Positions 15,271 through 29,316 of a stretch of DNA of 38,979 bases are shown here, piece after piece. The stretch is from Komagataeibacter melomenusus (GTDB taxonomy: Bacteria > Pseudomonadota > Alphaproteobacteria > Acetobacterales > Acetobacteraceae): the NCBI RefSeq assembly GCF_013155395.1, contig NZ_JABJWC010000033.1, forward strand, positions 1 through 38,979. The letters run 5' to 3'. The notes beneath the pieces are model-generated. The model worked only from the letters and a program-made list of their open reading frames with translations. It ran no database searches and had not been told where the DNA came from. Position 1 is the stretch's first letter, and every line of letters starts with the position of its first letter. Made by a program: the position numbers and the translations under genes.

Positions 15271-16062
15271 TTATTCTTGCCTGCCACCCGCCATCAGCAC
15301 CTCGCCCGTCACCACCTGCCGGGGGCCTGCGGGGGTGTCGAGCAGCAGGATTCCGTCATCCGCCAGCCCGGCAAACGTGCCGCTGAAGGCCCGGTTGCCT
15401 GCCACGACATGCAGCTTGGTGCCCGGCGGGTGGGCACGCGCCAGCCACGCCGCGCGTATGGCGCCAAAACCCCCTGCCTCATGGCATTCCAGCCAGGCGT
15501 CAAGGGCGCACAGCACGGCGCGCGCCATGTCCGGCGGGCTGACTGTCACGCCACATTCGGCCAGGCAGGCCAGTTCGCGGCCTTCTATGCGCGGAGCGGC
15601 GGCGAGGTTGGCCCCGATGCCGATCACCTGCCACGGGCCTGCCTCGCTGCTCCCGGTCTCGATCAGGATGCCCGCCATCTTGCGCCCGTGCAGCAGCAGG
15701 TCATTGGGCCATTTGAGTTCAAGCGCGCCCGGTTCAGGCATAAAACCCGCCACGGCGTCATGCAGCGCAAGCCCCGCAATGAACGGCCACAGCCCCACCG
15801 GCACGAAAGCCCCCTGCCCCGCCAGCATGACCGACAGCGCCAGGTTGCCACCCGGATCACGCCATTCGCGCCCCCGGCTGCCACGCCCGGCTGTCTGTTC
15901 AAGGGCGAGCACGGCAAGCCCGTCGCGCCCCTGCCCCGCCGCCAGCATGTCCTTGCACAGGTCGGATGTAGAACCCAGCCTGTCATGCACCTGCAACGGC
16001 CATGCACGCCCCCCGCTGCGGGGAATGCTCATGGTGCGGAAAGCAGAGGGGCTATGGGTCAT
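15271..16062 (-). CDS. birA: Biotin--[acetyl-CoA-carboxylase] ligase
   Basis: The 263-aa product attaches biotin through biotinyl-5'-AMP to the carrier protein of acetyl-CoA carboxylase. The biotin/ATP-binding loop GRGSRGREW, the SxxGNLALS-type strand (DPGGNLALSVML) and the KWPNDLLL motif are all present. The small C-terminal domain is also visible (GTFAGLADDGILLLDT). It lacks the N-terminal helix-turn-helix of the E. coli protein, so it is a monofunctional ligase and not a repressor. The ATG at 16062 lies three bases after the nuoN stop, so birA is the last gene of the complex I operon, an order common in alphaproteobacteria. An internal ATG at 16032 is an alternative start. Confidence 0.93.
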   Translation of the reverse strand: MTHSPSAFRTMSIPRSGGRAWPLQVHDRLGSTSDLCKDMLAAGQGRDGLAVLALEQTAGRGSRGREWRDPGGNLALSVMLAGQGAFVPVGLWPFIAGLALHDAVAGFMPEPGALELKWPNDLLLHGRKMAGILIETGSSEAGPWQVIGIGANLAAAPRIEGRELACLAECGVTVSPPDMARAVLCALDAWLECHEAGGFGAIRAAWLARAHPPGTKLHVVAGNRAFSGTFAGLADDGILLLDTPAGPRQVVTGEVLMAGGRQE

Positions 16063-16065
16063 GAA

Positions 16066-17490
16066 CTACCTGAACAATGCAGCCGCCGCCGCCTGTGCTG
16101 CCGTGGCCACCGGGCCGAGTGCCACGATGAAGAACACGGTCACCAGCCCCATGCCGACGGACACGAACGAGACCGAAACCGGCGCGCGGTCCAGCGCCGG
16201 GGCGGCGGCATCGAAAAACATGATCTTGACGATGCGTATATAATAATATGCCCCGATCACGCTACTGATGATACCGATGGCCGCCAGCCCGTAAAGCTGC
16301 GCGTTGATCGCGGCATAGAACACCATCAGCTTGCCAAAGAAGCCCGCCAGCGGCGGCGCGCCTGCCATGGAGAACATGAACACCGCCATGGCCAGCGCCA
16401 TGCCTGGGTCGCTGCGGCCCAGCCCGGCAAGGTCGCTGATGCGGCTGACCGCACGGCCCTTGCGCCGCATGGCCACGATGCCCGCAAACGCACCCACGTT
16501 CATGAACAGATACGTCACCAGATAGACCAGCGTGCCGCGCGTGCCCTCCGCCGTGCCCGCCGCAAGCCCGATCATGGCGTAACCCATATGCCCGATGGAG
16601 GAATAGGCCATCAGCCGCTTGATGTTGCCCTGCGGAATGGCAGCCAGTGCGCCAAACACCATTGATGCCGCCGAGACCACCTCGATCAGCAACTGCCACT
16701 GGTGCGCCATGGAGCCGAACGGCCCGGCCATGACCCGCAGCAGCACGGCAAAGGCCGCGATCTTGGGCGCGCCCGCCATGTAGGCGGTAACCGAGGTGGG
16801 GGCACCCTGGTACACATCCGGCGTCCACATATGGAACGGCACCATGGACAGCTTGAAGCACAGCCCCACCAGCACGAACACGATGCCCACCATCAGCCCC
16901 GCGGGCAGCACGGCGCTGCCGCGTACCGCCTGCTGCAACCCGGCATAGTCCAGCGTGCCCGCAAACCCGTAGGCCAGCGAGATGCCATAAAGCAGGATGC
17001 CCGAGGCCAGCGAGCCGAGTACGAAGTATTTCAGCCCCGCCTCCGCCGCCGTCACCTGATCGCGCGCGAATGCGCACAGGATGTAGATGGACAGCGAGGA
17101 GAGTTCGAGCCCCACGAACAGCGTCATGAGATTACCCGATGAGGCCATGATCATGGCGCCAAGGGTCGAGAACAGCACCAGCACGGGGAACTCGAACTTG
17201 TCGATTTCCATCTCGCGCGCATAGCCAATGCCCAGCACCAGCGAGAGAGCCGCCCCCGCCAGCGCCAGTACCTTCATAAAGCGCGCAAAGCCATCATTGA
17301 TGAAGACATGGCTGTAACCCGTGCCATCGGGCGAGAGCACCACGAGGGCCGCCGTCACCACCAGGGCGAACAGCGTCATCATGGTGCATGAAAAGAAAGC
17401 CTGACCGCGCTTTTGCATCACCCCGGCCAGCAGGATGACCAGCCCGGACAGGGCCAGCACGATTTCGGGCAGAGCAAGTGTCCAGTTCAT
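16066..17490 (-). CDS. nuoN: NADH-quinone oxidoreductase subunit N
   Basis: The 474-aa product is the antiporter-like ND2 subunit of complex I, with about 14 membrane helices. It pumps one proton per cycle and sits next to the NuoA/J/K connection. It is clearly NuoN and not NuoM: it begins MNWTLALPEIVLALSG and carries the ND2 blocks VGLELSSLSIYILCAFARD and LKYFVLGSLASGILLYG, and later SSIGHMGYAMIGLAAG. The start has AGGG eight bases upstream, within the short gap after nuoL. Length is typical. What is odd is the neighbour: in the usual operon nuoM stands between nuoL and nuoN, while here only 25 bases do. birA follows three bases after the stop. Confidence 0.96.
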   Translation of the reverse strand: MNWTLALPEIVLALSGLVILLAGVMQKRGQAFFSCTMMTLFALVVTAALVVLSPDGTGYSHVFINDGFARFMKVLALAGAALSLVLGIGYAREMEIDKFEFPVLVLFSTLGAMIMASSGNLMTLFVGLELSSLSIYILCAFARDQVTAAEAGLKYFVLGSLASGILLYGISLAYGFAGTLDYAGLQQAVRGSAVLPAGLMVGIVFVLVGLCFKLSMVPFHMWTPDVYQGAPTSVTAYMAGAPKIAAFAVLLRVMAGPFGSMAHQWQLLIEVVSAASMVFGALAAIPQGNIKRLMAYSSIGHMGYAMIGLAAGTAEGTRGTLVYLVTYLFMNVGAFAGIVAMRRKGRAVSRISDLAGLGRSDPGMALAMAVFMFSMAGAPPLAGFFGKLMVFYAAINAQLYGLAAIGIISSVIGAYYYIRIVKIMFFDAAAPALDRAPVSVSFVSVGMGLVTVFFIVALGPVATAAQAAAAALFR

Positions 17491-17507
17491 TGGTTTGACC
17501 CTGACAT
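17487..17507 (-). other. Mini-frame at the site where nuoM is expected
   Basis: In the 25-base nuoL-nuoN gap, the minus strand reads ATG TCA GGG TCA AAC CAA TGA. The TGA overlaps the ATG of nuoN (AATGA). It has no Shine-Dalgarno of its own. It could be chance, a coupling peptide, or a scar that keeps the first and last codons of a lost nuoM. The last reading is speculation. Confidence 0.3.
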
Positions 17508-17515
17508 CCGTGGGG

Positions 17516-19453
17516 TTAGCTTGCGAACAGGATGGTGGTCAGCAGCACCACCAGCCCGATCAGCATGGAAAAGGCATAGACCGCCATCGACCCGGTCTGC
17601 ACCCGCACGGCCTGGCCTGCGCTGCCTGCGGTCAGCCTGGCCAGCCCCTCGGGTATGCCTTCGATAACGCCTTCGTCAGCGCCCTTCCACAACAGGCGCG
17701 CCAGCGCGCGGTAGGGGCGCACGAATATGGCGCCGTACACCTCATCGAAATACCATTTGTTGAGCAGGAACAGGTAAAGCGGGCGCAGGCTGCGCGCCAG
17801 CGTGGCCGGAATGCCGGGGCTTGCGATATAGCACAGATAGGCCACCGCAATGCCCGCAACACCTGCAAAGGTGGGCACCAGCGCAATCAGGCCCGGTGTC
17901 TGTTCAAGGCGCTCCATGATGTCATGCCCCGGCAGGCTGGCAATCGCCCCACCCCAGAACCCGGCCTGGTTGGCGCCTATATAGAACGGCGCCAGCACCA
18001 CGCCCGCCAGCACGGCGCCGACCGACAGGACGGCCAGCGGCACCATCATGGAAGGCGGGCTTTCATGCGCGCCCTCATTGAGATGAAGGTCACGCGGCTG
18101 GCCATGAAACACCAGGAAGATCAGCCGCCAGCTATACAGCGCGGTCAGGAAGGCTGTGATGCAGCCCATGACCCAGCCATAATGGCCCATGGCGGAACCC
18201 GACATCCACGCGGCTTCCTCAATAGCATCCTTCGACCAGTAACCCGCGAACGGGAAGATACCGGCCAGTGCGAGGCTGCCGATCCACATGGCGGCGTAGG
18301 TATAGGGGATCTTCCGCCACAGCCCGCCCATGCGGAACATGTCCTGCTCGTCATGCACGGCATGGATCACGCAGCCTGCCCCAAGGAACAGCAGCGCCTT
18401 GAAGAAGGCATGCGTGGTGAGGTGGAACATCGAGGCCTGGTACGCCCCCACGCCAACAGCCACGAACATGTAGCCAAGCTGCGAGCAGGTGGAATAGGCG
18501 ATGGTGCGCTTGATGTCGGGCTGCACCAGCCCCACGGTGGCGGCGAAGAAACTGGTGGTGCCGCCGATCAGGATGATCAGGTCACGGGTGACGGGGGCGA
18601 GTTCCACCAGCGGCGACATGCGCACCATCAGGAAAACGCCCGCCGTGACCATGGTGGCCGCGTGGATCAGGGCGGAAACCGGGGTCGGACCTTCCATCGC
18701 ATCAGGCAGCCAGGTGTGCAGGAACAGTTGCGCCGACTTGCCCATGGCACCGATGAACAGCAGGGTCGCGATCACCTCCAGCAGCGGGTGCGTACCGAAA
18801 AGCTGGAACGTGTCATGCACATGGTAGGGAATGGCGGCGAAGATCGCATCATACGACACGCTGCCCAGCCGGATGTAGATGAGCGAGATGCCGACAAGGA
18901 AGAACAGGTCGGCGATGCGGTTGACCACGAACGCCTTGATGGCCGCGGCACAGGCCGCAGGGCGGTCATACCAGTAGCCGATCAGCAGGTAGCTCGCGAG
19001 CCCCACCCCTTCCCAGCCAAAGAAGAGCTGGAGCAGGTTGTCGGACGTGACCAGCATGAGCATGGCGAAGGTGAACAGCGAGAGATAGGCGAAGAAGCGA
19101 TACACCGGCTGCGCCTCATGCGCCATGTAGCCCACGCTGTACACATGCACCAGCACCGACACGGTCGTGACCATGGCCACCACGCTGACCGAGAGCATGT
19201 CCATGCGCAGCTGCCAGTCGGCCGCGAAGCCCGCTGCGTGGATCCAGTCCGCCACGGGCACGACAATCGGGTTCACGCCCCCCATCTCGAAGCCCAGCAC
19301 GCCAATGGCGGACAGCGCCGCGCACAGCATGAGGGCGATGGTGGTGAACCGCGCAGCCCCGTCACCCATCAGGCGGCCAAAGCCACCAGCGACCAGAAAC
19401 CCGATCAGGGGCGCGAAAACCGCGACTTCAAACAGGAAGGATGCCGCCTGCAT
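17516..19453 (-). CDS. nuoL: NADH-quinone oxidoreductase subunit L
   Basis: The 645-aa product is the distal antiporter-like ND5 subunit of complex I. Family blocks in order: an N-terminal helix MQAASFLFEVAVFAPLIG, then SVGYMAHE, the core FFGWEGVGLASYLLIGYWY, KAFVVNRIADLFFLVG, LHTWLPDAMEGPTPVSALIH and TTHAFFKALLFLGAG. The C-terminal FLLNKWYFDEVYG and a final hydrophobic segment belong to the lateral helix that runs along NuoM and NuoN and clamps the membrane arm. The C-terminus is normal, so nuoL is not a NuoL-NuoM fusion and is not truncated. A NuoL with an intact lateral helix but no nuoM beside it is unexpected. The start is four bases after the nuoK stop. Confidence 0.97.
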   Translation of the reverse strand: MQAASFLFEVAVFAPLIGFLVAGGFGRLMGDGAARFTTIALMLCAALSAIGVLGFEMGGVNPIVVPVADWIHAAGFAADWQLRMDMLSVSVVAMVTTVSVLVHVYSVGYMAHEAQPVYRFFAYLSLFTFAMLMLVTSDNLLQLFFGWEGVGLASYLLIGYWYDRPAACAAAIKAFVVNRIADLFFLVGISLIYIRLGSVSYDAIFAAIPYHVHDTFQLFGTHPLLEVIATLLFIGAMGKSAQLFLHTWLPDAMEGPTPVSALIHAATMVTAGVFLMVRMSPLVELAPVTRDLIILIGGTTSFFAATVGLVQPDIKRTIAYSTCSQLGYMFVAVGVGAYQASMFHLTTHAFFKALLFLGAGCVIHAVHDEQDMFRMGGLWRKIPYTYAAMWIGSLALAGIFPFAGYWSKDAIEEAAWMSGSAMGHYGWVMGCITAFLTALYSWRLIFLVFHGQPRDLHLNEGAHESPPSMMVPLAVLSVGAVLAGVVLAPFYIGANQAGFWGGAIASLPGHDIMERLEQTPGLIALVPTFAGVAGIAVAYLCYIASPGIPATLARSLRPLYLFLLNKWYFDEVYGAIFVRPYRALARLLWKGADEGVIEGIPEGLARLTAGSAGQAVRVQTGSMAVYAFSMLIGLVVLLTTILFAS

Positions 19454-19457
19454 TTCC

Positions 19458-19781
19458 CTACCCCTTCATCATCGTAATATCGTCGACTTCAATCGAGCCG
19501 CGATTGCGGAAATACACCGTGACAATGGCCAGCCCGATGGCGGATTCCGCCGCCGCGATGGTCAGCACGAACAGGGTCATCACCTGCCCCGACAGGTCGC
19601 CGGTCGCAGCCGAGAACGCCACGAAATTGATATTGGCCGAAAGCAGGATCAGTTCGATCGACATCAGGATGATGATGACGTTCTTGCGGTTGAGAAAAAT
19701 GCCGAACACCCCAAGCACCAGCAGGATCGCGCCAATGCCCAGGTAGGGTGTCAGGCCGATGGCCTCAATCGGGCTATTCAT
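19458..19781 (-). CDS. nuoK: NADH-quinone oxidoreductase subunit K
   Basis: The 107-aa product is the small ND4L membrane subunit with three helices. It starts [20 protein letters not shown]. Two conserved membrane glutamates of the proton path are visible, in [15 protein letters not shown] and in [13 protein letters not shown]. The ATG at 19781 overlaps the nuoJ stop by eight bases (ATGAATAG), which shows translational coupling. An upstream start at 19802 would add seven residues inside nuoJ and is unlikely. Length is exactly typical. Confidence 0.96.
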
Positions 19782-20547
19782 CGCCCTCTCCTTTCGTGCC
19801 ATGCGCAGGCGTCGCGATCACCAGCGCGGTGCCGGTTGCATCCTTGGCTTCCGCCACGCGCCAGGCCTCGGTGCCGTAGGTGCCGGGCACGGCGGCGATG
19901 TCATAGCTCTCACGCGGGCGCAGGAAGCCGCCCTGCGCATCCACGCCCGCGCCAAGGGGCACCTGCAGCATTTCAAGTGAATCGGCCACCGTGCGGTCAT
20001 GCTGGCGGTCGATGTTCTGCCGCCGCCCTGTCGGCCGTTCGCGCAGGGTGAGCACGATGGCCCCGATCATGGCCACCAGCAGCACCAGCGCGCAGGCCTG
20101 GAACAGGAAGATGTAGTGGGTGTAGATCACATCGCCCAAAGCCGCAGTATTGGTGCGCTCGGGTGATGAGGGCACCAGATGCGCGATCTGCCCGATATTG
20201 GAGGCCGACCGCCAGTGCATGAACGCCATGAGCAGTTCAACCAGCAGCACGCCGCCCACAACCCCGCCAATGGGCGCGTAACGCTGCACGCCTTCGCGCA
20301 TCTGCGTAAAGTTGACATCCAGCATCATGACCACGAACAGGAACAGCACGGCCACCGCGCCGACATAGACAATGACCAGCGTCATCGCCAGGAACTCGGC
20401 GCCTGCGATCAGGAACAGCCCGGCTGCGTTGAAGAACGCCAGGATCAGGAACAGCACCGAATGCACGGGGTTGCGCGCGCTCACCACCATGGTGGCGGAC
20501 AGGAGCAGGACCGCAGCAAAAACGTAAAAGACAATCTGGGTCATCAT
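19774..20547 (-). CDS. nuoJ: NADH-quinone oxidoreductase subunit J, with long C-terminal tail
   Basis: The 257-aa product is the ND6 membrane subunit with five helices. It starts [20 protein letters not shown]; the second ATG (20544) is an equal alternative. The conserved third helix with [27 protein letters not shown] is the pi-bulge helix next to the quinone site. After the fifth helix ([17 protein letters not shown]) the family normally has a short RRQNI tail. Here about 70 further residues follow, hydrophilic and Gly/Ala/Thr-rich, which makes the protein longer than most homologues. AGGA about nine bases upstream can start it, but a stronger ribosome site belongs to a tiny frame whose stop overlaps the nuoJ start. 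Confidence 0.95.
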
Positions 20548-20567
20548 GGGTAGGTTTCCTGCCGCAT
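20544..20567 (-). promoter_or_regulatory. Seven-codon leader frame coupled to nuoJ
   Basis: On the minus strand AGGAGGAAA ends five bases before an ATG at 20567; the AGGAGG core has the ideal spacing of eight. The frame encodes MRQETYP and its TGA overlaps the ATGATG of nuoJ. It is the strongest ribosome site near nuoJ and lies in the only sizeable gap (78 bases) of the operon. A leader peptide that delivers ribosomes to nuoJ is a reasonable inference, but not proved. Confidence 0.45.
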
Positions 20568-20625
20568 GGATGTTTCCTCCTGCTGGCACGGCTTCCCCGG
20601 CATGGGCCGGGGCGGCCATGCACGT

Positions 20626-21114
20626 TCAGCGGTACGGGGCATCAAGCTCGAGCCTGCGGGCCAGCACGCTTTCCCAGCGGTCGCCATTGGCCAGCAGCTT
20701 GTCCTTGTCGTACATCAGTTCTTCGCGGGTTTCGGTCGCGAACTCATAATTCGGCCCCTCGACAATCGCATCGACCGGGCAGGCTTCCTCGCACAGGCCG
20801 CAATAGATGCATTTGGTCATGTCGATGTCGTAGCGCGTGGTGCGGCGCGAGCCATCATCGCGCGGTTCGGCCTCGATGGTGATCGCCTCGGCAGGGCATG
20901 TCGCCTCGCACAGCTTGCACGCAATGCAGCGTTCCTCCCCATTGGGGTAGCGGCGCAGCGCATGCTCGCCCCGAAAGCGCGGCGAGAGCACGCCCTTCTC
21001 ATAGGGGTAGTTGATCGTGGCCTTGGGCTTGAAAAATGCCTTCAGCGTTGCCCCCATGCCGGCCGCAAGCTCGGCAAGCAGCATGGAACGGGCGGCTTTG
21101 GTCAATGTATTCAT
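20626..21114 (-). CDS. nuoI: NADH-quinone oxidoreductase subunit I
   Basis: The 162-aa product is the 8Fe ferredoxin-like subunit that carries clusters N6a and N6b toward N2. The two motifs are [12 protein letters not shown] (Cys63, 66, 69, 73) and [12 protein letters not shown] (Cys102, 105, 108, 112). An amphipathic N-terminal helix ([23 protein letters not shown]) binds it to the membrane arm. The ATG at 21114 shares its A with the last base of the nuoH stop (TGATG), so the pair is tightly coupled. A longer frame up to 21177 lies inside nuoH and is rejected. Length is typical. It is followed by the 78-base gap that precedes nuoJ. Confidence 0.97.
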
Positions 21115-22136
21115 CAGCCTGCTCCTCCGGGCAGAAGGCCCGTTACCATCAGGAAGCCCGCCGTCAGCACCATCCACGCCAGCGAGAACGGCAGGAACAC
21201 CTTCCAGCCCAGCCGCATGAGCTGGTCATAGCGGTAGCGGGGGAATGTCGCGCGCACCCAGATGAACACGAACAGGCAGAACAGGATCTTGGCGATCAGC
21301 CACAAGGGCCCCGGTATCCATGTAAAGGGAGCGATGGCCAGCGGCGGCAGCCAGCCACCCAGGAACAGGATGCTGACCATGCCGGACATGAGGAACATGT
21401 TCGCGTATTCACCCAGGAAAAACAGGCCGAAGGCGAGTGCCGAATATTCCACGAAGAAGCCTGCCACCAGTTCGCTCTCGCCCTCGGGCAGGTCGAACGG
21501 CGCGCGGTTGGTCTCGGCCAGTGCCGAGATGAAAAACACGATGAACATCGGGAACATGGGCAGGCAGAACCACACATGGCGCTGCGCCAGCACGATGTCG
21601 TTGAGGTTGAGGCTGCCCACCGCCAGCAGCACCGACACGATCACCAGCCCGATGGACACCTCATACGACACCATCTGCGCCGCCGAGCGCAGCCCGCCGA
21701 GGAAGGCGTATTTGGAGTTCGACGCCCAGCCCGCGATCAGCATGCCGTAAACACCGAGCGAGGAGATGGCCAGCAGGTAGAGGATGCCCACATTGATGTT
21801 GGCAATGGCCAGCCCGTTACCCGTGGGAATGACCGCCCACGCGATCATGGCCAGCGAGAAGGTCAGGAAGGGCGCAAACAGGAACAGCATCCGGTTGGCA
21901 CCCGAGGGAATGACCGTCTCCTTGGTCAGCATCTTGATGGCATCGGCAAAGGCCTGCAGCACGCCGAACGGGCCGTTCACGTTCGGCCCCTTGCGCAACT
22001 GCATCGCGGCCATCACCTTGCGCTCGGCCAGCGTAAGGTAGGCCACGCCCAGCAGCAGCGGCACGAGCACCGCAAGGGATTCGAGCACGATCAGCAGCAA
22101 CTGGCCAAGCGTGGTGTGAAAGAAGAAATCCGCCAT
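21114..22136 (-). CDS. nuoH: NADH-quinone oxidoreductase subunit H
   Basis: The 340-aa product is the ND1 membrane subunit that builds the quinone chamber together with NuoB and NuoD. Family blocks are [17 protein letters not shown] near residue 40, [14 protein letters not shown], the loop [20 protein letters not shown], and [15 protein letters not shown] near the C-terminus. About eight membrane helices can be counted. The ATG at 22136 comes four bases after the nuoG stop, and GGAG, seven bases upstream, is part of the last nuoG codons. Upstream in-frame extension to 22220 would overlap nuoG and is not supported. Confidence 0.97.
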
Positions 22137-22140
22137 GTCC

Positions 22141-24207
22141 CTACTCCGCCGCCTCGATTGCGGGGCGCACATAAATCCCCGAACAGGTTTCCATGGTCGG
22201 GCTTGCGCGACACACGGCATGGGTCAGGTAATAATCGGCAATGACCGGATGGAACGGCGTTGCCGCCACCGCCACGCTGCCCGCCTGCGGGGGCGTTGTG
22301 TCCGTAGTGCCAAGGCGTGTGTGTTCCGCCTGCCCGTAGGCCGGGTGCGCCTGCGCCATCCGTGCGCGCAGGGCCTCGATCGTGTCATAGGGCAGCTTGC
22401 GGCCCGCCACCTCCGAGAAAGCGCGTAGGATGCGCCAGTCCTCACGCGCGTCGCCCGGCGGCATGACCGCGCGGAAGGCGCGCTGCACGCGGCCTTCGGT
22501 ATTGGTGTAGGTGCCCGGCTTCTCGGCATAGAGCACGCCGGGCAGGATCACATCCGCCCGCGCGGCCCCCGCATCACCATGATGGCCCTGATAGATGACG
22601 AACGTGTCCGGCCCGATGTCCTGCACCGCGAACTCATCGGCCCCCATCAGCCACAGCACGTCCACGCCGCCGCCCAGCATGCCCGCCACGTCACGCCCCT
22701 GCGCGCCAGGCACGAGGCCGAGGTCCAGCCCCGCCATGCGGCTTGCCGCCGTGTGCAGCACGTTGAAGCCGTGCCAGTCGGGGCGGATGGCACCCGCCTG
22801 CACCGCCAGGTCCCAGCAGGCCTTTGCAATAGCTGGCCCGTCGGGGCGGGTCAGCGCGCCGTGGCCCACGATGATCATGGGGTTCTTGGCGTTGGCCAGC
22901 ACCTCGGCAAAGGGCAGTTCGCCTGCCGCGAGTTTCGCCAGTGTGTCCGGCCCCTCGCCCAGCACGTCTGCCGTGTAGGTCGGATCGGCATTGGGCGCGC
23001 CGATCATGGCGATGGGGAATTTGCCCCGTCCCGCATCGACAAACCGCCTGCGGATGCGGGCATTGAGCACAGGGGCTTCCTGGCGGGGGATGGAGCCTAC
23101 GATCAGCAGCGCATCCGCCGCGTCAATGCCCGCAATGCCGGTATTGAAGGTGTAGAAGTCACGCCGCGATGTATCGTAATGCGCGCCGTCCTGCCTGCAG
23201 TCGATATTGGGCGAACCCAGCATGTCCATCAGGTCCTTGAGCGCCATCAGGCTCTCGGCATCGCACATGTCACCGGCAATCGCGCCGATGCGCGCGCCCG
23301 GCACGCCCTTGAGGCGCGTTGCGATGAGCGAGAACGCATCCGCCCAGCCTGCGGGCTGGAGCTTGCCGTCCACCCGCACCCAGGGCCGGTCGAGGCGGCG
23401 GCGGCGGAAGCCATCGACCACGAAGCGGCCCTTGTCAGCCAGCCATTCCTCGTTCACCTCATCATTGATGCGCGGCACGATGCGCAGCACCGACGCCCCG
23501 CGGGCCTGCATGACGATGTTGGTGCCCACCGCATCGCACACATCAATGGAGTCCGTGCGCTTGAGTTCCCACGGCCGGGAGGAGAAGGCGTAGGGCTGCG
23601 AGGTCAGCGCGCCCACGGGGCAGATATCGATCAGGTTGCCCGACAGTTCGGATGTCAGTGCCTTCTCGACGTAATTGGTGATCTCGAGGTTCTCGCCACG
23701 GGATACGCCGCCGAGTTCGGGCACGCCCGCCACCTCGGTGGAAAAGCGGATGCAGCGCGTGCACTGGATGCAGCGCGTCATCACCGTCTTGACCAGCGGG
23801 CCGAGATACTTGTCGGTGACCGCGCGCTTGTTCTCGCGGTAGCGCGAATGGTCCGCTCCGTAGCCGAAGGCCTGGTCCTGCAGGTCGCATTCGCCGCCCT
23901 GGTCGCAGATGGGGCAGTCAAGCGGGTGGTTGATGAGCAGGAACTCCATCACCGCGCGGCGGGCACGGCGCACCACCTCGGTATCGGTAAAGATCTGCAT
24001 GCCATTGCTGATGGGAAAGCCGCACGAGGCTACCGGCTTGCGCCCGCCCGAGACCTCGACAAGGCACATGCGGCAGTTGCCCGCGACCGACAGCCGCTCA
24101 TGGTAGCAAAAGCGCGGGATTTCCTTGCCCGCCGCCTCGCACGCCTGCAGCGCGGAAGAGCCGGGGGCGACATCAACCACAATACCGTCAACGGTTACTT
24201 TGACCAC
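22141..24207 (-). CDS. nuoG: NADH-quinone oxidoreductase subunit G
   Basis: The 688-aa product is the largest peripheral subunit. Its N-terminal part holds a plant-ferredoxin-like 2Fe-2S domain ([18 protein letters not shown]) and the His-ligated cluster motif [20 protein letters not shown] 4Fe-4S site [14 protein letters not shown] follows, with a further Cys near [11 protein letters not shown]. The rest is a molybdopterin-oxidoreductase-like domain that no longer binds cofactor in complex I. The start is a GTG at 24207, preceded by GGAG eight bases upstream in the last codons of nuoF. No extra N7 cluster motif was seen, as is normal outside groups related to E. coli. Length is typical of alphaproteobacteria. 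Confidence 0.97.
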
Positions 24208-24212
24208 TGTTC

Positions 24213-25538
<1,326 letters not shown>

Positions 25539-25543
25539 GCGCT

Positions 25544-26194
25544 TTACCCCTGCCCCTGCGGCTTGATTGCGGCGTCATCCACCAGCACCTTGCGCCCGCC
25601 CGCGGGGGCCGAGTTCAGGCGGTCGATGGTGGGGCCGGGCGTGGGGCGCTCGCCGCGCCTGAGGGCCTCGATCAGTTCAAGCGTGCGCGGGCCGTCGAGA
25701 TCCTCGTAGTAATCATCATCAACCTGCAGGATCGGCGCATTGGCGCAGGCGCCAAGGCATTCCACCTCCGTCAGGGTGAACAGGCCGTCCGCGCTGGTCT
25801 CGCCAAACGCGCTGATGCCGGTGGCTTTCTTGCACGCCGCCGTCACGTCATCGGAGCCGCGCAGCCAGCACGAGGTGGTGGTGCAGACCTGCAGATGGTA
25901 GCGGCCGATCGGCTTTGTATTGAACATGAGGTAGAAGGTCGCGACCTCATACACCCGGATCGGCGCCATCTCGAGGCGCCTGGCCACCACGTCCATGGCG
26001 ATGCGCGGTATCCACGCGCTGCCGGTCTGGCGGCCCATCTGCTTTTGCACCACGTAAAGCAGCGGCAGCACGCCGCTTGCCTTGCGCTCGGGCGGGTATT
26101 TGGCCAGGATCACCGCAATCTGCTGCTCGCTCTCGGCATCGAATGCGAAATGGGTGGGTTCCGCGCCCGCAGGCGCAGTGGGCTGGGTGGACAT
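25544..26194 (-). CDS. nuoE: NADH-quinone oxidoreductase subunit E
   Basis: The 216-aa product is the thioredoxin-like 2Fe-2S subunit (cluster N1a). The four ligands are in [10 protein letters not shown] and CLGACANAP. The N-terminal helical part [15 protein letters not shown] block reads [15 protein letters not shown]. The C-terminal ~35 residues ([18 protein letters not shown]) are a Pro/Gly-rich tail common in alphaproteobacterial NuoE. I prefer the ATG at 26194 because AGGTGA stands about six bases before it. A GTG at 26203 would overlap the nuoD stop as GTGA and add three residues, and it is a real alternative. The operon order D-E-F is standard. Confidence 0.94.
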
Positions 26195-26199
26195 GTCGG

Positions 26200-27456
26200 T
26201 CACCTGTCAATCTCGCCAAACACCAGGTCGAGCGACCCGATAATGGCCACGGCATCCGCCAGCATGTGGCGGCGCGACATCTCATCAATGGCTTGGAGAT
26301 GGGAAAAGCCCGTGGGCCGGATCTTGCAGCGATACGGCCGGTTGCTGCCATCGGCCACCAGATACACGCCAAACTCGCCCTTGGGCGTTTCAGTCACGGT
26401 GTAGGTGGCGCCGGGCGGCACGTGATAGCCTTCGGTAAACAGCTTGAAGTGATGGATCAGCGCTTCCATCGAGCGCTTCATCTCGCGCCGGGGCGGTGGC
26501 GTGATCTTGTGATCCTGCACCTTCACCGGGCCGGGGCGCATCTGCTCAAGGCACTGGTTGATGATCTTTACGCTCTCGCGCATCTCGGCCACGCGCACGA
26601 GGTAGCGGTCGTAGCAGTCACCCTGTCGGCCCACCGGCACGTTGAAGTGCACCTTGTCGTAATTGTCATAGGGCTGGCTGCGGCGCAGGTCCCACGGCAC
26701 GCCGGAAGCGCGCAGGCACGGCCCGCTGAAGCCCCAGGCCAGCGCCTGCTCGGTGGTGAACACGCCAATGCCCACCGTGCGCTGCTTCCAGATACGGTTG
26801 CTGGTCAGCAGGCTTTCAAGGTCGTCGATCCATTGCGGGAAGGTACCTGCCCAGTTGGCAATGCGCTCCTCCAGCCCGGCGGGCAGGTCCTGCGCCACGC
26901 CGCCGGGGCGGACGTAATTGGCATGGAAGCGCGCGCCGGATGCGGCCTCGTAGAACTCGATCAGCTTCTCGCGTTCCTCATACCCCCACAGCGCGGGTGT
27001 CAGCGCGCCACAATCCAGCCCGAAGGAGGTCAGGTTGAGGATATGGTTGAGGATGCGCGTGATCTCGGCAAACATCACCCGGATCCACTTCGCGCGGTCC
27101 GGGGCCTCGATGTCGAGCAGCTTTTCCACCGCCAGCGCAAAGGCCTGCTCCTCGCACATGGGCGAGACGTAATCGAGCCGGTCGAAATAGGGCAGTGCCT
27201 TGGGGTAGGTCTTGTATTCGATCAGCTTTTCCGTGCCGCGATGCAAAAGCCCGACATGCGGGATGGCGCGGGCCACGACCTCGCCCTCCATTTCCAGCAC
27301 CAGCCGCAGCACGCCATGGGCGGACGGGTGCTGGGGGCCGAAATTCAGCGCGTGGGAGTCAATTTCCACCACATGACGCTTCACCTCGCCATCGGGCTCT
27401 TCTGGCAGCAGGCTGTCGGGAATGTCCGTATCGCTACGCAGGGTGACATCGCTCAT
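26200..27456 (-). CDS. nuoD: NADH-quinone oxidoreductase subunit D
   Basis: The 418-aa product is the 49-kDa subunit related to the large subunit of NiFe hydrogenases. It lines the quinone pocket. [16 protein letters not shown] near residue 38 carries the His that contacts quinone. The family blocks [30 protein letters not shown] and [34 protein letters not shown] follow; the last is the conserved C-terminus. It is separate from NuoC, as in most bacteria outside Enterobacteria. The ATG at 27456 has AAAGGG about nine bases upstream and lies four bases after the nuoC stop. The longer frame to 27507 would overlap nuoC. Confidence 0.97.
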
Positions 27457-27460
27457 CGGC

Positions 27461-28126
27461 TCAGCCCTTTCGCTTGATGTCGTGGCGGTCGGCATGGGCC
27501 TTTTCATCGCCCGGCAGGGTCAGGATGCCTTCCCATGGCGATTCAAAGTCGAAATTGCGGAAGTCCTGCACCAGGTCGACCGGCTCATAGACCACCTGCC
27601 GCCGTTCCTCGTCGTACCGCATCTCGACATAGCCGGTCAGCGGGAAGTCCTTGCGCAGCGGGTGCCCCTCGAAGCCGTAATCGGTCAGGATGCGGCGCAG
27701 GTCCGGCTGGTCGGTAAACAGGATGCCGAACAGGTCATAGGCCTCGCGCTCCCACCATGTGGCGGCAGGCCAGAGCTGGTGCACCGACGGCACGGGATGG
27801 GTCTCATCCGTGGTCACGATCACGCGGATACGGTGGTTATGGGTGACCGAGAGCAGGTTGTAGACCACCTCGAAGCGTTCCGCACGGTCGGGAAAGTCCA
27901 CGCCGCATATGTCCATCACCTGCTGGCAGGCATAAAGCGGGTCATCGCGCAGCATGGCCATGAGCGCGAGCAGCCGGTCGCGCGTGGTGCGTACCACAAG
28001 CTCGCCCTTTTCGATGCCAGCGGACATGATGCCCGGAATGGTGGTGGACAGGCGGAAGCTGATGGCCCCAAGGCTGCCCGTAACCCCGCGCGGCTGGCTT
28101 GCGGGAAGGTTCTGCACATCAGCCAC
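27461..28126 (-). CDS. nuoC: NADH-quinone oxidoreductase subunit C
   Basis: The 221-aa product is the 30-kDa subunit of the hydrophilic arm, with no cofactor. Its signature [18 protein letters not shown] and the following [21 protein letters not shown] are complete. The start is a GTG at 28126 that overlaps the end of nuoB by eight bases (GTGGCTGA), the same overlap length as between nuoJ and nuoK. The C-terminal ~50 residues ([20 protein letters not shown]) are the usual strap over NuoD. Length is typical. Confidence 0.96.
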
Positions 28127-28700
28127 GGCGGATTGTCCCCGTCCTGCGGATTTTCTTCTGCAGTTGCAGGATGCCGTAGATCAGCGCCTCCGCCGTAGGC
28201 GGGCAGCCGGGCACATACACATCCACCGGCACGATGCGGTCGCACCCGCGCACGACGGAATAGGAATAATGGTAATACCCGCCGCCGTTGGCGCATGACC
28301 CCATGGAGATGACCCAGCGCGGCTCGGCCATCTGGTCGTACACGCGCCGCAGCGCCGGGGCCATCTTGTTGGTGAGCGTGCCCGCCACGATCATCACATC
28401 GGACTGGCGTGGCGAGCCACGCGGGATGATGCCCATGCGGTCGAGATCGTAGCGCGGCATGTAGGCGTGGATCATTTCCACCGCACAGCAGGCCAGCCCG
28501 AACGACATGGGCCACAGGCTGCCCGTGCGCCCCCAGTTGACCAGCTTGTCGAGACTGGCGACGACAAAGCCCTTTTCCGTCATCTCGCCGGTAATGCCTT
28601 TTATCACCGCATCCTGCTCCGCCCCGGGGGGCAGCATCTCGCGGTTCCAGGCAATGCTGTCAGCGGGCCGGCCCGGCCCTGAGGTATCGTCGTTGCCCAT
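28119..28700 (-). CDS. nuoB: NADH-quinone oxidoreductase subunit B
   Basis: The 193-aa product binds cluster N2, the last iron-sulphur centre before quinone. The ligands are the tandem Cys71-Cys72 ([10 protein letters not shown]), Cys136 (MGSCANGGG) and Cys166 ([11 protein letters not shown]). The start choice matters: an ATG at 28721, two bases after the nuoA stop, is possible. But the ATG at 28700 follows GGGGAGG with a spacing of seven, so I take 28700. The N-terminal ~40 residues are variable; the conserved part begins near [15 protein letters not shown]. The product is peripheral and interacts with NuoD, NuoI and NuoH. Confidence 0.95.
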
Positions 28701-28723
28701 CGGGGCGCCTCCCCTTGTCATGT

Positions 28724-29089
28724 TCAATCCCAGTCCAGGGCGCCCTTGCTCCATTCGTAAATGAAGCCGACGACCAGAACGCCGAGGAAACCCATCATGG
28801 AGGCGAAGCCGAACCAGCCGATGCGCGACAGGCTGAGCGCCCAGGGAAAGAGAAAAGCGACCTCAAGGTCGAAAATGATGAACAGGATCGCCACCAGGTA
28901 GAACCGCACGTCAAAACGGCGGCGGGCATTGTCAAATGCCTCGAAACCACATTCATAGGCCGACGTTTTCTCGGCATAGGGTTTCTGGTGGCCAAAAAGC
29001 AGCGAACTGCCCAGCATGGCGCCCGCAATGACCACGGCAATGCACCCGAATATCAGTACGGGCAAATAATCAGCGATAACGGAATGCAT
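28724..29089 (-). CDS. nuoA: NADH-quinone oxidoreductase subunit A
   Basis: The 121-aa product is the ND3 membrane subunit with three helices. The loop after helix one carries [32 protein letters not shown], where the Cys and the acidic residues mark the conformational-switch loop near quinone. I chose the ATG at 29089 ([12 protein letters not shown]). A TTG at 29104 would add five residues. It is the first gene of the operon. The 227 bases between it and the tRNA terminator must hold the nuo promoter: a TTGACG at about 29257 on the minus strand is a candidate -35, but no clear -10 follows at the right spacing. Confidence 0.95.
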
Positions 29090-29316
29090 CTTCCGTGTTC
29101 CCAACCTGTTAATACGCCGCCCGGTGTCTTTATCGACTTATATGTGGCTGAAGGGATGCTAGACCCAACCCGGTGGGGGGAACAGTTACTTAACCGTGTG
29201 CATTCATGAACATTACCGTGAAGACGAATACAGTAACGCTTCCGTCAACACTGTTCTGCTCCGGCCATTATGGCACGATTTATTGTTCTCATTTTTTCGT
29301 GTGGGAAAGCACGCAT

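Follow-up and report, generated by a model that had tools for sequence, protein, structure and literature searches.

We analysed a 38,979-bp stretch of DNA from Komagataeibacter melomenusus, which is one entire contig (G000:C73) of a 3.64-Mb, 146-contig draft genome (G000) and is called the window here. Its minus strand carries a complex I operon that runs from nuoA to nuoL, continues with nuoN and is followed by birA; nuoM is absent from the operon. The features are, all on the minus strand:

17516..19453: nuoL, 645 amino acids (aa), full length; TIGR01974 771.8 bits (cut-off 407.5), residues 9-641 on model positions 4-629 of 630
17491..17515: nuoL-nuoN intergenic gap of 25 bp, nuoM's place in most relatives; contains AGGG
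17487..17507: mini-frame of six codons (MSGSNQ; ATG TCA GGG TCA AAC CAA TGA), whose stop overlaps the nuoN ATG
16066..17490: nuoN, 474 aa, full length; NF004440 593.1 bits (cut-off 519), model positions 8-477 of 477
15271..16062: birA, biotin protein ligase; TIGR00121 119.1 bits (cut-off 83.1)
19458..29104: nuoK to nuoA, the remainder of the complex I operon, by best NCBIfam matches

The original prediction, made from the sequence of the window, had described nuoM as missing between a full-length nuoL and a full-length nuoN. Indeed, the two genes are only 25 bases apart, and each product scores above its curated cut-off over almost the whole model. The genes nuoA to nuoK were also assigned to their families; for nuoA, the three listed models were all of the NuoA type and none reached its cut-off (best 102 versus 155). 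The position of birA 3′ of nuoN is shared with many relatives that have the nuoL-nuoM-nuoN order.

A full-length nuoM on another contig

Four explanations had been offered for the empty junction: nuoM is encoded elsewhere, the strain has lost it, the assembly has dropped it, or the lineage has a complex with one antiporter module fewer. The first proved correct. A whole-genome search for a NuoM/ND4 homologue, the check proposed with the prediction, found one match over the cut-off, on another contig (G000:C93:16422-17861) and between the DNA-repair gene mutL and the topoisomerase gene parE. The protein matched TIGR01972 with 552.6-552.7 bits (cut-off 263.8) over positions 1-483 of the 486 of the model, and passed the equivalog model NF004499 (589.5 bits, cut-off 585). 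The solved chain closest to it was 8qby_M, 'NADH dehydrogenase subunit M' (E 3.4e-129). The Glu of transmembrane helix (TM) 5, the Lys residues of TM7 and TM8 and the Glu of TM12, which we take to be the key charged residues of NuoM, were kept in 19/19 displaced and 39/39 operon NuoMs compared. All 14 complex I subunit genes are thus in the genome, A to L and N in the window (NuoA below its model cut-offs) and M at C93.

The other three matches to the NuoM family in the genome were two proteins of the window, NuoN and NuoL, and a weak open reading frame on C74. The latter was ruled out as a NuoM, with 21.1 bits against the TIGR01972 cut-off of 263.8. It encodes a 578-aa orphan antiporter-domain protein (L010:858-2594, minus strand of G000:C74), weakly similar to hydrogenase-4 subunit B (50.7 bits, far below the cut-off).

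At C93, mutL lies upstream of nuoM on the same strand and parE lies downstream in convergent orientation, both named by NCBIfam equivalogs (MutL, NF000953, 721.6 bits, cut-off 693; ParE, TIGR01055, 750.2 bits, cut-off 723.35). The likely start of nuoM is a GTG at L009:6408, 155 bp past the stop codon of mutL; an ATG precedes this GTG by 21 bp. GTG occupied the same aligned start position in 12 of 14 displaced nuoM genes (G103 has TTG and G019 ATG there), and is probably the start codon, conserved in most of the clade. An AlphaFold single-chain model of NuoM, made from 8 sequences, was of low confidence (mean predicted local distance difference test score 53.6).

We consider it very probable that the genome encodes an ordinary complex I of 14 subunits, and that the operon lacks nuoM because this gene is displaced, to a site downstream of mutL and convergent with parE. 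The C93 NuoM would join the subunits encoded by the nuoA-L,N operon. We observed directly that this NuoM is present and full length, keeps the key residues, shows synteny in the clade and is under purifying selection (see below); that it assembles with the operon subunits, where it starts and which signals drive its expression we infer. Against the explanation stand a promoter scan of L009 6000-8200, which found no sigma-70-like promoter near nuoM, and a proteomic comparison discussed further below.

Distribution of the split arrangement

Displaced NuoM was found in all 19 Komagataeibacter genomes searched (90-100% identity), and a 351-base probe spanning the nuoL-nuoN junction gave a single unbroken match in each of them (84-100% identity). 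In five of the 19, nuoM and the closed junction lie on one contig, 437-722 kb apart. Four of the 19 NuoM rows were flagged with one internal stop; we read the loci of three of these (G017, G010 and G014, not G002), and in each the open frame of NuoM starts past the flagged stop and still includes the likely start.

These results dispose of the other three explanations. Loss by the strain is contradicted by NuoM in 19/19 genomes of the genus. An assembly artefact, which a 146-contig draft might have made plausible, is refuted by the contiguous junction in the same 19 genomes and by the five contigs that carry both loci. A complex I short of one antiporter module has only the empty junction in its favour and is refuted as far as gene content goes, being very improbable with a full, conserved NuoM under purifying selection in each of the 19 genomes of the genus searched; furthermore, a NuoM encoded away from the operon was detected as a protein in Acetobacter pasteurianus, according to the available text of PMC10742644.

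We then turned to the family Acetobacteraceae, sampled with 150 genomes, of which 121 had a NuoM of at least 48% identity. The split, that is, NuoM away from a nuoL-nuoN pair lacking nuoM between them, was found in 18 of the 121, belonging to 11 genus codes. Among the rest, nuoM lay directly before nuoN in 100 and directly after nuoL, at the end of the matched part of the contig, in three (G022, G070 and G108); comparison of the junction in relatives, also proposed with the prediction, thus found it closed in all 19 Komagataeibacter genomes and nuoM beside nuoN or nuoL in 103/121 of the family. All 18 genomes with the M-less operon possess the displaced NuoM and, in the family sample, this NuoM was confined to such genomes, with the exception of G117 (see below). 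The displaced nuoM has mutL and/or parE no more than about 7 kb away, and mostly adjoining it, in 17 of the 18; G134 has neither. In 12 family genomes with an intact operon that were checked, mutL and parE were not neighbours: in five they shared a contig at a distance of 0.25 Mb or more, and in seven they were on separate contigs.

NuoM and NuoL were also absent together. At the E-value limits of the search, all nine family genomes that were at least 97% complete and had no NuoM match had no NuoL match either, and in 12 family genomes with only a distant, second-type NuoM, NuoL was also of the second type only (40-43%). In other families of the class, the L-M-N order was present in 26/26 loci read (250 genomes had a match).

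A scan of named genomes gave at least 583 confirmed loci. Among the best 80 of these, 60 had nuoL and/or nuoN beside nuoM and 20 were displaced, the latter from Komagataeibacter, Gluconacetobacter, Acetobacter, Commensalibacter and uncultured relatives; in 17 of these 20, mutL and/or parE was present in the flanks fetched, of up to 6 kb per side. The split is older than Komagataeibacter, and goes back to the ancestor of those acetic acid bacteria in which this complex I is retained. In some Acetobacter (L179, L189 and L190) and in G134 (L130), neither mutL nor parE was near nuoM in the stretch read, and the displaced nuoM seems to have moved again in these.

The age of the split bears on the mini-frame in the nuoL-nuoN gap, which the original prediction had proposed as what is left of both ends of nuoM after a precise in-frame loss. 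The frame exists, at 17487-17507. We read the junction in 17 of the 18 genomes of the displaced clade (G139 was omitted; from the search tables, its nuoL and nuoN are 35 bp apart including the nuoL stop), and found gaps of 0-76 bp as aligned. The exact mini-frame was present in only two of the 17, G000 and its close relative G013. One extra base in G012, of the same genus, brings the ATG into the reading frame of nuoN. A short frame with another sequence, which likewise ends on the ATGA of nuoN, occurs in G158 and G090; the remaining junctions differ. Since nuoN begins with ATGA, a suitably phased ATG further upstream readily yields such a mini-frame. The reading as a relic of nuoM is not credible, because the split predates Komagataeibacter and the frame is limited to two of its species. 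Clean removal of the operon nuoM from between nuoL and nuoN nevertheless fits the comparative data. The AGGG in the gap is more simply read as the likely ribosome-binding site of nuoN.

A second NuoM, distant from the one described above, is present in 12 of the 19 Komagataeibacter genomes (for example, G017:C1:3309958-3311385), near other antiporter-type matches, and absent from G000. It probably belongs to a second nuo operon. Since the genus accordingly has more than one machine that uses a NuoM (the second is 37-39% identical), and since displaced-type NuoM occurs alongside a complete operon in the genus of G117, one may ask if the displaced NuoM serves another machine and the complex encoded by the operon works without NuoM. 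We regard this as very improbable: G000 lacks the second NuoM, so that the displaced gene is its sole one, and the displaced NuoM accompanies the M-less operon in all 18 family genomes that have it.

Divergence and origin of the displaced NuoM

Two NuoM trees were built, one from 61 of 73 rows (nine near-identical rows of the genus and three covering <80% of the query were left out) and one from 60 chosen rows, 19 of them from other alphaproteobacteria. The displaced NuoMs formed one clade in both (19 of the 61 rows, support 83; 19 of the 60, support 86). Import of NuoM from other alphaproteobacteria was rejected: a branch with support 100 separates the 19 NuoMs from these from the 41 rows of Acetobacteraceae, one of which bears only the label Rhodospirillales. 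The displaced type falls inside Acetobacteraceae, and a foreign origin is not indicated.

For comparison, we used the operon proteins NuoL and NuoN (37 genomes with both read) and the neighbours ParE and MutL (23 genomes, MutL read in 20). When branch lengths were fitted on a fixed NuoL+NuoN topology of 34 genomes (15 displaced and 19 operon), the displaced clade had a stem of 0.906 for NuoM, and of 0.281 and 0.163 for NuoL and NuoN, respectively. Summed branch lengths within the clade were similar in the same fit (NuoM 5.68, NuoL 5.83 and NuoN 4.80). The free NuoM trees were also long-stemmed (0.85 and 0.58). At 15 diagnostic positions, displaced and operon NuoMs have different residues, each fixed in at least 90% of its group. 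The ratio of nonsynonymous to synonymous substitution rates (dN/dS) in five pairs, which share some genomes, was 0.08-0.18 for NuoM, 0.08-0.15 for NuoL and 0.01-0.13 for NuoN. The displaced NuoM is a divergent type that is now under purifying selection. Because the long stem is peculiar to NuoM while its present dN/dS is ordinary, there was one burst of change, in NuoM and not in NuoL or NuoN, followed by normal selection.

Both types of nuoM were found together in 3/3 genomes searched of the genus of G117. In G117, the operon nuoM is in the usual L-M-N place, and the displaced-type copy is elsewhere and not beside mutL. Across the three genomes, each copy shows purifying selection (dN/dS 0.02-0.07). 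In both NuoM trees the extra NuoM of G117 (G117s) was sister to the whole displaced clade with support 100, on a long branch of its own (1.05-1.08) and not nested in the clade; at the 15 diagnostic positions it has 11 displaced-type and four operon-type residues. A private duplication inside this genus was rejected (approximately unbiased test, p-AU 1.3e-7). Solo NuoMs in addition to an intact L-M-N operon were also seen in two other Acetobacteraceae, G119 (L126:8069-9598) and G029 (L128:8054-9568). They were not counted as intermediates, as they fall on another branch and have Asn at the TM8 Lys.

On balance, we favour an order of events in which duplication came first: an extra, diverging copy of nuoM would have arisen and taken up many substitutions, and the operon copy would afterwards have been deleted cleanly. 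A phase of redundancy would explain the burst, and the presence of both types in all three genomes of the G117 genus suggests that the duplicate took over before the operon copy was deleted. Alternatively, the operon nuoM may have moved once to the mutL region and evolved fast there, with the gene in the G117 genus acquired by later transfer from an early acetic acid bacterium. This simple relocation keeps an appreciable chance of being right. Transfer explains why G117s, but not the G117 genome, is sister to the displaced clade, and a NuoL+NuoN-like position of the displaced NuoM was not rejected. A lone moved copy, however, should keep its rate, yet the NuoM stem is 3-6 times that of NuoL or NuoN, and G117s stands on its own long branch outside the displaced clade.

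Several points speak against duplication first. Neither ParE+MutL nor ParE+MutL+NuoL+NuoN (23 genomes) placed G117 as sister to the acetic acid bacteria, so that the shared NuoM type requires either that other lineages later lost it or that it was transferred. G117s could be drawn toward the displaced clade by the long stem, though 11 of 15 diagnostic residues agree. Fixing NuoM to the NuoL+NuoN topology may lengthen its stem. Finally, the place of the displaced clade among the operon NuoMs is unsure, the NuoL+NuoN-like position being neither found nor rejected (p-AU 0.18).

The diagnostic changes include His to Tyr and Ala to Ser around what we take, by presumed helix numbering, to be the TM7-TM8 region. 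A tentative and rather unlikely extension of the duplication-first order is that, in the ancestor of the acetic acid bacteria, the duplicated NuoM gained a changed proton path or subunit interface, replaced the operon copy and was then frozen by selection as a functionally altered ND4 module. If so, the genus of G117, which keeps both NuoMs, could build two versions of one enzyme. In any case, the two-copy genus would allow a direct test of antiporter module exchange.

Comparison with known complexes and published reports

The arrangement in G000 resembles the canonical 14-subunit bacterial complex I (8qby_M and 3rko_M, presumably from Paracoccus and E. coli) in that all 14 subunit genes are in the genome and NuoM is full length with its key residues, and differs in that nuoM is outside the operon and NuoM is divergent, with its 15 diagnostic residues. 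The place of nuoM between nuoL and nuoN is a typical gene order and is not essential for the enzyme. In 2M complex I, two NuoM subunits are present in one complex and NuoL is lengthened. NuoM copy number is involved in that system too, whereas G000 has one NuoM and a NuoL of 645 aa, and in the G117 genus the gene for the second NuoM is remote from the operon, and NuoL has an ordinary length of 645 aa.

The split is already in print in passing: the available text of a report on A. pasteurianus SKU1108 lists nuoM apart from the nuo operon, in one clause (PMC5158111), and contains no clade-wide, synteny or sequence analysis, unlike the present work. A literature search found the split only in that paper; most subscription papers were outside its coverage, and we make no claim that it is otherwise unreported. 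The accessible portions of PMC12361115 and PMC12405394 do not mention a displacement of nuoM. What we add is the clade-wide map, the burst confined to NuoM and the genus with both copies. Our results warn against inferring gene loss from operon content, and offer a natural example of a single subunit leaving the operon of a tightly built complex, passing through a one-time burst unshared by NuoL and NuoN, and then settling.

In the proteomics of A. pasteurianus CICC 20001, as given in the consulted part of PMC10742644, NuoM has a number (fig_HN.1610) far from those of nuoB-N (fig_HN.3342-3354). Its fold changes (0.62, 0.33, 2.16 and 1.78) agree in direction with those of the operon subunits given there (for NuoN, 0.93, 0.31, 2.22 and 2.12). 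SucA, listed in the table with them, moves alike, so that these data show shared regulation of energy metabolism rather than assembly.

In the sections seen of PMC4596401, Gluconacetobacter diazotrophicus has two nuo operons, and the nuo tree was built from nuoHIJKLN, with M not included. The nuoM of the same species is named in one list with other nuo genes in the text seen of PMC9368920, and plasmid-borne nuo genes are described for K. saccharivorans in that of PMC12361115. Three metagenome-assembled genomes labelled Asaia bogorensis (L199, L212 and L225) have L-M-N operons of the ordinary Acetobacteraceae type. Their labels may be wrong, because, according to the available text of PMC4596401, the nuo operon of Asaia and the common nuo operon belong to different clades.

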